Source: Gemmatimonadota bacterium
GTDB taxonomy: Bacteria; JBHIER01; G020348925
Direction of reading: 5' to 3'
Length of the DNA: 8,865 nucleotides
Assembly (NCBI GenBank): GCA_020348925.1
Contig: CP070758.1
Coordinates: 844,884-853,748 of the forward strand
The notes under the pieces are model-generated. The model was not told the origin of the DNA. It saw nothing but the letters and a program-made list of their open reading frames with translations, and searched no databases. Within the stretch, counting starts at the first letter, position 1; each line of letters begins with the position of its first letter. Positions 2,695 through 8,865 of the stretch are shown here, one piece after another. Position numbers and translations under genes: made by a program.

Positions 2695-2761
2695 TATGGC
2701 TCAAACAATAAAAACGTCTTGTAAATAAAGAAAAGTTGATGCCGAATGATCGAGATGACTT

Positions 2762-2993
2762 CCTTTCTTTTTCTTTGCTGGCCAAAGAAAAAGAAGCAAA
2801 AAGAAAGGCCAGCCCCAAGACTTCGCCGGGACCATCTGCGGCTCGCTTCGCTGCTTTTCCGGAACTCATCCCTACTTTCGCAGGGATTCAGACAGCCGGA
2901 AAAAACACGCTCCGCTTGCCGGATGGTCCAGCGGCTCAGGCTTCAGGGCATCTGCTCTGTATCCTTCAGCGGGAAGAGGTGTGACCTGAGCCG
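2762..2993 (+). repeat. Multi-hairpin structured intergenic element
   Basis: Seven exact stems pack into 232 nt. The pyrimidine/purine part can form either a 13-bp stem (2765-2777 with 2783-2795, loop CTGGC) or, using the same bases, an 11-bp stem (2762-2772 with 2798-2808) or a 7-bp stem (2777-2783 with 2807-2813). Next is a three-tier nested structure: GGACCATC (2829-2836)/GATGGTCC (2922-2929), TTTTCCGG (2855-2862)/CCGGAAAA (2896-2903) and ATCCCT (2868-2873)/AGGGAT (2882-2887). A 9-bp stem, CGGCTCAGG (2932-2940) with CCTGAGCCG (2985-2993), closes it. Open frames crossing it on both strands are driven by the palindromes and look non-coding. I believe similar intergenic sequences recur in some bacterial genomes, but cannot confirm that here. 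It may be a REP-like dispersed element or a structured RNA. Confidence 0.6.
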
Positions 2994-3287
2994 AAAAGTC
3001 GAAAGGGGCTTGGTCATCGTTATCAATGCTACGGCCATTTCAGGACCATGTTTGTCATCAGTACAGAGAATAGTGAATTCATCAACAACATTGGAGATGA
3101 TCCAAATTCTTATCCGTTTGGGAATTTTTCTCAATACACTGTGTTGTTTCTTTTTCAGTAATGAAAAAAGCGTAAAAGGAACAAGGAATTTATCCACGAG
3201 GGTCAGGGCTTAAATTTTAAATTATATTAGAGTAGAGAGTACACTCCTTGTATCAGAGGGAGAGGAGTCATCTCTTTGAGTTTGAGT
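2994..3287. other. Non-coding stretch, nothing supportable
   Basis: No open frame here has a convincing start, ribosome site and protein-like content on either strand. A 37-codon frame at 3048-3161 has protein-like composition but no usable ribosome site, and may be a gene remnant. The stretch becomes AT-rich toward the promoter of the downstream oxidoreductase. Confidence 0.4.
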
Positions 3288-3317
3288 TTTACAGAATAAT
3301 TTTTTTGAAATAATAAT
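3288..3317 (+). promoter_or_regulatory. Candidate sigma70-type promoter for the first oxidoreductase
   Basis: TTTACA (3288-3293, 5 of 6 to the -35 consensus) and AATAAT (3312-3317, 5 of 6 to the -10 consensus) are separated by 18 AT-rich bases. They lie about 55 nt before the start codon. In an AT-rich stretch this could arise by chance. Confidence 0.35.
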
Positions 3318-3370
3318 CCCATGAAGAGTGAAGAGAAAATTTGCTTTTGAAGAGGTGACCAGAAGGTGCC

Positions 3371-4357
3371 ATGAAAGCGATTGTCTACACAAAATACGGA
3401 CTGCCGGATGTCCTTCAACTCAAAGAGGTGGAGAAGCCGGTCCCCAAGGATAACGAAGTATTGATTAAAATTCAAGCGGCATCCATAAATTATATGGATT
3501 GGGGTTTTGTTCGAGGTGAACCGTACATCGTTCGCCTCTGGTCCGGGTTTTTTAAACCAAAAAACAAGATACCCGGAGCTGACATAGCAGGACGGATTGA
3601 AGCGGTTGGTGAAAAGGTAAAAGAGTTTCAGCCTGGTTGTGAGGTATTCGGAGATATATCGAGTTGTGGACATGGCGGTTTTGCCGAATATGCGGCCGTT
3701 CCTGAGAATCTCCTGGTATTAAAGCCTGCAGGTATTTCATTTGAAGAAGCAGCGGCTGTACCTGTCGCAGGGATCACCGCTTTGCAGGGAATTCGCAAAG
3801 GAGGGATACAACCAGGACATAAGGTATTGATTCAAGGAGCATCCGGCGGTGTTGGAACATTTGCAGTCCAGATTGCCAAATCGTTCGGTAGTGAGGTGAC
3901 TGCTGTGTGCAGCACAACGAAATTGGACATGGTACGATCGATTGGTGCAGACTTTTGTATTGACTACACGAAGGAGGATTTTACCCAAAATGGACAGTGT
4001 TATGATCTTATTATTGCTGCTAATGGGTATCATTCGATCTCAGATTATAAACGAGCATTAACACCCAAAGGGACTCTCGTTGTCACCGGAGGCTCCATGG
4101 CTCAAGTTTTCCAGTCGATGTTTCTCGGACCATTGATTTCATTGATGGGGAGTAAAAAAATAATGAACATGGGGGTTGCCGAATCAAATAAAAAGGATTT
4201 GACTTTCTTAGGAGCACTTCTTGAAGCAGGCAAGGTAAAACCTGTGTTGGACAGATGTTACACCTTAAGTGAGGTCCCTGATGCTCTCCTCTATTTTGGA
4301 GAAGGACATGCCCGAGGAAAAGTAGTCATAAGTGTGGAACATAGTAACAAAACCTAA
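3371..4357 (+). CDS. Zinc-independent MDR family NAD(P)H-dependent oxidoreductase (quinone oxidoreductase-like), copy 1
   Basis: A 328-residue cytosolic medium-chain dehydrogenase/reductase, probably reducing quinones or alpha,beta-unsaturated carbonyls with NADPH. The N-terminal GroES-like domain is at about 1-120. The Rossmann domain follows with the nucleotide-binding GASGGVG at 156-162, which is the quinone-oxidoreductase version of the motif. The catalytic zinc ligands of classical alcohol dehydrogenases and the four-cysteine structural zinc lobe are absent, so alcohol dehydrogenase activity is unlikely. Length is normal for the family. AGAAGG (3361-3366) lies 4 nt before the ATG, rather close. 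It is a paralog of the next gene: 30 of the first 34 residues are identical. The TAA stop lies inside the left box of a 72-bp attC-like palindrome. The true substrate is unknown. Confidence 0.92.
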   Translation: MKAIVYTKYGLPDVLQLKEVEKPVPKDNEVLIKIQAASINYMDWGFVRGEPYIVRLWSGFFKPKNKIPGADIAGRIEAVGEKVKEFQPGCEVFGDISSCGHGGFAEYAAVPENLLVLKPAGISFEEAAAVPVAGITALQGIRKGGIQPGHKVLIQGASGGVGTFAVQIAKSFGSEVTAVCSTTKLDMVRSIGADFCIDYTKEDFTQNGQCYDLIIAANGYHSISDYKRALTPKGTLVVTGGSMAQVFQSMFLGPLISLMGSKKIMNMGVAESNKKDLTFLGALLEAGKVKPVLDRCYTLSEVPDALLYFGEGHARGKVVISVEHSNKT

Positions 4358-4423
4358 AAAGACACTGCACCGGCCCGCTAATTCGCTGTGCTTTAAAGCG
4401 GAAGGTGAGCTTGGTCGTTCGGC
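4352..4423 (+). repeat. attC-like imperfect palindrome after oxidoreductase 1
   Basis: The left box ACCTAAA (6 of 7 to RYYYAAC) and right box GTTCGGC (6 of 7 to GTTRRRY) bound 72 bp. The interior folds as an imperfect hairpin: GAC...GTC, CACC...GGTG and CCGCT (4375-4379) with AGCGG, around an A/T-rich loop. The gene's stop codon occupies positions 4-6 of the left box, and the next gene starts 34 nt after the right box. Length and register are the same as in the site at 5405-5476. The boxes are imperfect, so it may be a degenerate cassette recombination site, or a terminator-like hairpin. Confidence 0.4.
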
Positions 4424-4456
4424 TTATTAATTTTTATACTCTTGGCGAGAGAACAC

Positions 4457-5410
4457 ATGAAAGCAATTGTCTGCACGAAATATGGACCACCAGAAGTTCT
4501 TCAGCTTAAAGAGGTGGAGAAACCGGTTCCGAAAGATAACGAAGTGCTGATAAAGGTTCATGCGACGACCTGTCACATTGGGGACACGAGAGTTCGAAGT
4601 TTTAATGTCCCTTTCTGGCAGATGATCCCATTTCGAATTTTTTTGGGTATCAGAAAGCCAAAAAGAAGTATACTTGGAATGGAGTTAGCCGGGCAGGTTG
4701 AAGCTGTAGGCAAGGGCGTAAAACGATTCAAAAAAGATGACCAGGTTTTTGCATCAACCGGTTTTGTTTTTGGTGCATATGCTGAATATATCTGCTTGCC
4801 TGAAGACAGCACAAATGTAGCTCAAGGGTTAGTGGCGCTAAAGCCAGCCAATATGACCTATGAGGAAGCTGCTGCCGGTGCGGCTTCTGGAGGACTAACA
4901 GCATTGTCTGTTCTTCGCAAGGCAAATATCCGTAATGGACAGAATGTCCTTATCTATGGAGCCTCAGGAAGTGTGGGGGTATTTGCAGTACAACTTGCCA
5001 AATATTTTGAGGCGGAAGTTACTGGAGTATGCAGTACCGCGAACGTGGACTGGGTGAAATCGCTGGGCGCCGATACGGTTATTGATTATACCAAAGAAAA
5101 TTTTACAGAACGCGGAGTAACCTACGATGTTATTTTCGATGCGGTGGACAAGATATCGTCTTCACGAGGTAAGAAGGCTCTCAAAAAGAATGGAATCTAC
5201 CTTAACGTTATTAAGCATTCCGGTCGTGGGGATGACATAAAAACTGAAGATTTGATCTTTCTCAAAGACCTTATTGAAGCGGGAAAACTAAAGACGGTCA
5301 TAGATAGATGCTATCCGTTGGAACAAATGGTCGAGGCTCACAGGTATGTTGAAAAAGGACACAAAAAGGGACATGTCGTCATAACTGTTGAACATGCGGA
5401 GAAAACTTAA
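4457..5410 (+). CDS. Zinc-independent MDR family NAD(P)H-dependent oxidoreductase (quinone oxidoreductase-like), copy 2
   Basis: A 317-residue tandem paralog of the preceding gene with the same overall role: NAD(P)H-dependent reduction of a quinone or enone, substrate unknown. The GroES-like domain comes first, then a Rossmann domain with GASGSVG at 168-174 and the conserved IDYTKENFT that precedes the dehydrogenase core strand. Zinc-binding residues are missing, as in copy 1. The ATG at 4457 is preferred because it aligns with the start of copy 1; an in-frame TTG at 4442 would add five residues. The ribosome site is weak (GAGAG about 6 nt upstream). The copies match best over the first 34 and the last residues (both end in KT) and differ at the presumed substrate-pocket segment around residues 35-75, suggesting different substrates. 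The stop lies inside an attC-like palindrome. Confidence 0.92.
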
Positions 5411-5476
5411 CAAAGCGCTGAAGCTGACTGGCCGCACGCGCCTATGTGGGCCTGCAACTGAACGCGGACGTTAGCC
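5405..5476 (+). repeat. attC-like integron recombination site after oxidoreductase 2
   Basis: The left box ACTTAAC matches RYYYAAC fully and the right box GTTAGCC matches GTTRRRY at 6 of 7. Inside, AAAGCGCTGAAGCTGACTGG and the reverse complement of the right arm (GTCCGCGTTCAGTTGCAGG) align as an imperfect stem with one unpaired base in the left arm, as in attC L''/L' pairs; GGCC/GGCC then closes toward a loop holding CCTATG. The 72-bp length is within the attC range. The TAA stop sits in the left box, and a small gene starts 25 nt past the right box. No integrase is in the window. This is the best attC candidate here. Confidence 0.6.
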
Positions 5477-5500: not shown

Positions 5501-5650
5501 ATGCAGAAGTCCCGGTTCATTGTCGGCTTAATTCTAATTGCCGCCGCAGCCCTACTGTTCGTGTTTGGTAAAGGAAGCTATTCTGTTGCTGGTGTGATAG
5601 CCCTTGGAGTGCTTGGTCTGGTGTCAATTGCGATCTCTCGAAGGAAGTAG
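5501..5650 (+). CDS. Small two-helix membrane protein, function unknown
   Basis: A 49-residue protein starting MQKSRFIVGL and ending SRRK. Two hydrophobic segments, at about residues 6-22 and 29-44, are separated by a short GKGSY turn, with positive residues at both ends; it is probably a hairpin in the inner membrane with both termini in the cytoplasm. GAGG at 5491-5494 lies 6 nt before the chosen ATG. Two further in-frame ATGs, at 5489 and 5495, would add four or two residues but overlap that ribosome site. GC is higher than in the neighbouring oxidoreductase, which fits separate origin. Its start closely follows an attC-like right box, as in a gene cassette, but no matching site is seen after its stop. 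No function can be assigned. Confidence 0.7.
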   Translation: MQKSRFIVGLILIAAAALLFVFGKGSYSVAGVIALGVLGLVSIAISRRK

Positions 5651-8786: not shown

Positions 8787-8826
8787 AGCAGTCCTTGGCA
8801 CGTAGTTGAGCGCCGGAGCGTTATGC
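8763..8826 (+). repeat. Possible attC-like right half-site before the last gene
   Basis: TTGAGCGCCGGAGCGTTATGC (ending at 8826) resembles an attC right arm: an L'-like block, then the core box GTTATGC (6 of 7 to GTTRRRY). Upstream, GCCGC (8766-8770) and GCGGC around CTAT make a tight hairpin, and its CCTATG also occurs in the loop of the site at 5405-5476. I cannot find a matching left arm, so only a half-site is supported. A start codon follows 16 nt after the core. Confidence 0.25.
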
Positions 8827-8841
8827 ATATGGAGGAAAGAA

Positions 8842-8865
8842 ATGACAAAAGTAGTGAATATCGAA
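8842..8865 (+). CDS. Start of a gene running off the window (MTKVVNIE...)
   Basis: Eight codons are visible. GGAGG at 8831-8835 is 6 nt before the ATG, an excellent ribosome site. An ATG at 8829 in another frame lacks one and is less likely. Too little is present to identify the product. Its position just after an attC-like core fits a cassette gene. Confidence 0.6.

Follow-up and report, generated by a model that had tools for sequence, protein, structure and literature searches.

A structurally weakened attC site behind an alcohol dehydrogenase gene in a Gemmatimonadota genome with fragmented integron integrases

The element at positions 5405-5476 of the window, the 8,865-nucleotide stretch of Gemmatimonadota DNA analysed here, is a genuine integron attC site. 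Very probably it is the attC of the cassette carrying ADH2, a zinc-type alcohol dehydrogenase (ADH) gene that would have been captured beside the related gene ADH1, and it has since been stranded and set drifting by the breakdown of the integrase. The coordinates of the features are collected in Table 1.

Table 1. Features of the ADH locus (window positions) and of the two integron platforms elsewhere in the host genome
Feature	Position	Strand	Remarks
ADH1, alcohol dehydrogenase gene related to ADH2; probably carried by the preceding cassette	3371..4357	+	Pfam; decayed attC next
Decayed attC of the ADH1 cassette	4352..4423	+	R'' ACCTAAA (AAC lost); R' GTTCGGC (6/7)
ADH2 cassette, putative extent	4418..5470	+	From the upstream R' G/TT cut to its own R' G/TT cut
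ADH2, zinc-type alcohol dehydrogenase family gene, cassette cargo	4457..5410	+	Pfam PF13602/PF08240; stop within R''
attC of the ADH2 cassette	5405..5476	+	R'' 5405-5411, R' 5470-5476; structurally weakened; R1 25.0 bits
49-aa hydrophobic ORF	5501..5650	+	Two probable membrane helices (by eye)
Integron platform: intI as N- and C-terminal pieces, attI-like core, three attCs	G000:C1:1426329-1429861 (L103 18330 to L104 1962)		
Second platform: intI remnant, attI-like core, deaminase-like gene, attC, ABC-transporter genes, weaker attC	G000:C1:1020731-1024830 (L105)	minus	

The left box of the site, R'', reads ACTTAAC and matches RYYYAAC in all seven positions, with the TAA stop codon of ADH2 (5408-5410) falling inside it; the right box, R', reads GTTAGCC, in 6/7 agreement with GTTRRRY, and the R''-to-R' span is 72 bp, all as described in the initial annotation. 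Furthermore, the leftmost 24 nucleotides align without gaps to the consensus of known attC sites, and the invariant GAC at positions 22-24 is kept. The boxes by themselves would not be significant in the window, across which a box-pair finder returns at least three pairs of the R''/R' type. Box-pattern searches yielded few sites, with similar counts in the controls, the window has no match in Rfam, and when the site was folded together with its flanks, neither strand gave a signal. Because box pairs are frequent by chance, a covariance model, R1, was built from 11 attC sites, all from other organisms: plasmid class 1 integrons supplied eight of them, and IntI-bearing genomes the other three. 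Its hairpin was entered by hand with the extrahelical positions, and no site from the host genome was included. In the window, with filters off, R1 scores the element at 25.0 bits (E=2.4e-5), the second-best place reaching only 5.4 bits; over 68.6 kb the E-value is 1.8e-4, and across 1.6 Mb of the host genome (80 stretches of 20 kb) there are zero matches at E<=5. As a positive control, R1 finds matches in 17 of 30 IntI-bearing genomes, with up to 59 per genome; three of these genomes, for instance, give arrays of 59, 42 and 41 matches. The covariance-model check proposed in the initial annotation, made here with our own model, upholds the attC identity claimed there, on sequence and structure together.

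In integrons, an attC marks the end of a cassette and goes with the gene in front of it, so the site at 5405-5476 belongs to ADH2, an open reading frame that ends in its own attC. The ends of the cassette are placed at the standard integron cut positions on both attC sites, the upstream core being that of the decayed ADH1 attC, which is recognised through alignment only: R1 scores no site at 4352-4423 in the window scan. This upstream sequence aligns with the attC sites behind ADH relatives of Anaerolineae, Aminicenantes and SAR324, with the AAC of R'' changed to AAA, and for this reason ADH1 is probably a cassette gene too. The initial annotation had instead taken the small gene at 5501 for the inserted cassette, which is unlikely. 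Its open reading frame does begin 25 bases past R', a distance typical of cassette genes, and cassettes do include short membrane-protein genes; however, R1 detects no attC behind it in the window, and no relatives turned up in the genome contigs, among plasmids and viral contigs, or in a sample of 386 genomes. What remains of the earlier interpretation is an integron attC without a nearby integrase, with ADH2 as the cargo gene of its cassette.

Regarding the hairpin, the bottom strand of the window 72-mer folds no better than shuffled sequences under DNA parameters (z=+0.3), and the minimum obtained is not the canonical structure. Under RNA parameters, the bottom strand alone has the canonical hairpin, in full, as its minimum (-24.5 kcal/mol, against -19.1 for the top strand; z=-1.1). 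The suggested bottom-strand fold check yields the canonical hairpin as the minimum with RNA parameters and does not with DNA parameters. Most of the comparison attC sites folded in the same way give z values from -4.6 to -5.6: the standard aadA1 attC and one site each from the 1.43 and 1.02 Mb platforms lie between -4.6 and -4.9, and the Anaerolineae site (L128) is at -5.6. Two are weaker, namely the site at 108 kb, where the canonical hairpin forms weakly (z=-0.8), and that of SAR324 (z=-1.2). Taking into account this poor fold relative to the platform sites, 5405-5476 is probably a decaying, immobile remnant that is no longer active, and from the same fold we infer that its decay followed the loss of the integrase.

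The search of the wider genome recommended in the initial annotation revealed further attC sites at 108 kb, 1.02 Mb and 1.43 Mb. Over the query end, ADH2 and its 108 kb paralogue share 84% identity; the similarity stops inside the left end of the attC, and the paralogue is closed by an attC of its own, different in sequence (67 bp, 39.3 bits). The 1.43 Mb platform carries attC sites of 33.1, 28.1 and 46.6 bits between its cassettes, and the 1.02 Mb platform has two, of 45.7 and 18.7 bits. The whole-genome R1 search was lossy, with 138 of 1372 host-genome candidates scored and the locally found 46.6- and 28.1-bit sites missing from its output, and the census of attC sites in the host is therefore incomplete.

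For the integrase, a TIGR02249 search of the assembly gave no IntI above the cut-off, and a profile built from 28 IntI proteins, with which remnants were sought, found those of at least two intI genes; the earlier statement that no integrase is in sight holds, with broken pieces as the only yield of the intI search. The 28-protein profile places two pieces directly before the 1.43 Mb array, an N-terminal one (E=6e-11) and a C-terminal one that reads THVLNRGGKGVKSPMD; the C-terminal piece at 1.02 Mb reads YTHVLNRGGKSIRSPV. Behind each remnant stand the identical 20 bases, TATATTCATTGTTGGGCAAC, likely the attI core, and after them cassettes in the same orientation. The 1.02 and 1.43 Mb platforms keep this attI-like core and canonical attC sites, but with only intI fragments beside the core they fall short of complete integrons. 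Fainter intI traces occur at 1.993 and 2.905 Mb, with a 5' piece at 2.529 Mb. 

Beyond the two platforms, intI or the sequence around its start is faintly recognisable at L246 12954-13100 (minus), L260 10072-10200 and L255 13700-13780 (minus), the first of them with an attI-like core carrying three mismatches. The two larger integrase-like matches, at 2361 and 928 kb, are judged not to be IntI: they are below the cut-off, have a gap in mid-match, and come from a search that was positive in 14 of 14 control genomes, as XerC/XerD would be expected to make it. A possible match to the intI remnant at 737 kb showed nothing convincing. A promoter-like pattern sought before the intI remnants matched reversed sequence as often as the real one, and is consequently not claimed.

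These observations bear on whether 5405-5476 still works, with ADH2 mobile through an integrase that is absent from the assembly (for example in a scaffold gap) or acts in trans. Both boxes and the R''-L'' register of the site are intact, and runs of 100 N are present in the assembly, one directly after the window and another directly after the 1.43 Mb array. This is nevertheless quite improbable, given the poor DNA fold of the site, the lack of any assembly IntI above the cut-off and the broken state of the intI copies that were observed.

The association of the ADH gene with an attC recurs in unrelated genomes. Relatives of ADH2, 61-82% identical, are distributed across many bacterial and archaeal phyla, including Chromatiales, Neomarinimicrobiota, Aminicenantes, Chloroflexota, Calditrichota, Bacteroidota, Bacillota, Asgard archaea and others. 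In three groups R1 places an attC at the stop codon or at most 6 bases from it: SAR324 (L153, 37.2 bits), Bacteroidota (the near-identical loci L167 and L169, 33.3 bits) and Chromatiales (L122, 23.5 bits). In two more, Anaerolineae (L128) and Aminicenantes (L140), a homologous hairpin behind the gene is recognised by eye and by alignment. Most of the 80 relatives scanned, the Bacillota copies included, have no R1 attC, which indicates that the family is not always cassette-borne. Some archaeal copies have a short attC-like 3' end (L133, L146); as R1 passed none of the archaeal copies, the archaeal link consists of gene similarity and a short motif only. Mapping the phylum labels onto the ADH tree takes 30 changes, compared with a minimum of 16 and with 43.7 for shuffled labels, so that phyla are partly clustered and clearly mixed; part of this mixing may come from paralogy and mis-binned contigs. 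The tree neighbours of ADH2 are rows from Chromatiales, Calditrichota, Fidelibacterota and Aminicenantes. Tandem ADH paralogues are frequent in other phyla (flanks of L125, L126, L138, L152 and L180), and at L125 a truncated attC separates them.

That 5405-5476 is a chance resemblance, or the stem-loop terminator of an ordinary chromosomal gene, would agree with its poor fold score and with the abundance of chance box pairs, but is scarcely credible against an R1 score without equal in 1.6 Mb, the aligned GAC and L'' register, and the attC sites that follow both the 108 kb paralogue and relatives from unrelated phyla.

The preferred reading, a stranded ADH2 cassette, implies the following course. 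ADH2 would have been captured as a circular cassette, IntI recombining the folded single-stranded attC with an integron site. This capture would have placed it next to the related ADH1 cassette, whose attC would have decayed later. The host would formerly have possessed integron platforms, of which the findable integrase genes are now gutted; with these genes lost, the cassettes would have been left as stranded chromosomal genes, and 5405-5476 would be drifting away from a foldable hairpin. A wider proposal can be put forward tentatively, at somewhat less than even confidence: the family of ADH1 and ADH2 may have spread largely as integron cassettes through many bacterial phyla and Archaea, including Asgard, and the host genome may be a graveyard of several gutted platforms whose cassettes were retained as ordinary genes.

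Several further elements were noted in the window and in other stretches. At window positions 8789-8826, an attC-like 3' half precedes an ATG near 8842, and at L010 206-275 an imperfect inverted repeat, GCCTAAAG...GCGTTAGGT, lies before a phosphotriesterase-like gene; both fail R1. Window positions 4404-4419 read GGTGAGCTTGGTCGTT, the 3' end of an ADH-type attC, which is found again at L010 4518-4538, after a GNAT gene, where the left half is unclear. An insertion sequence occupies positions 1-1260 of the window; its transposase is of the MULE/Mutator type, and its terminal inverted repeats are of the CAAAATTTTGGTRGCGTCCTAAAAATGG type. Two dispersed intergenic repeats were recognised by eye, one at window 3205-3340 and L010 2230-2370, the other at window 2761-2820 and L105 11290-11345.

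Among known systems, the closest to this locus are the CALINs, clusters of attC sites lacking an integron integrase, for which IntegronFinder requires two or more attC sites by default and which have been proposed to be degraded integrons (PMC9024848). As in a CALIN, the attC-terminated genes of the window share one strand, lack an integrase in their vicinity, and are seemingly degraded. Unlike a CALIN by that default, the window holds a single attC that passes the model, the ADH1 site being decayed, and a count of two is reached only when the latter is included. In the atypical chromosomal integrons of Treponema, intI is oriented in the same way as the cassettes, and in T. phagedenis intI is reported to have been lost and the attC sites left behind (PMC3607928). 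The intI remnants of both host platforms are likewise oriented like their cassettes; in contrast, fragments of the host intI genes can still be recognised. Integrons are also present in Archaea, and cassettes are common to Bacteria and Archaea (PMC9668308). The ADH family similarly occurs in Asgard and other archaea, in some cases with an attC-like 3' end, although none of the archaeal copies here passes the attC model. Collectively, the locus is thus a further case of a known integron-derived type, and the cassette family that comes with it is useful. A lineage without a phylum-mate among the genomes compared gains such a locus, which offers an example of a cassette gene retained after the death of the integrase. 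The ADH family, for its part, is a traceable cassette-borne enzyme in many phyla, which makes the integron carriage of ordinary metabolic genes across phyla and domains testable on a single family.
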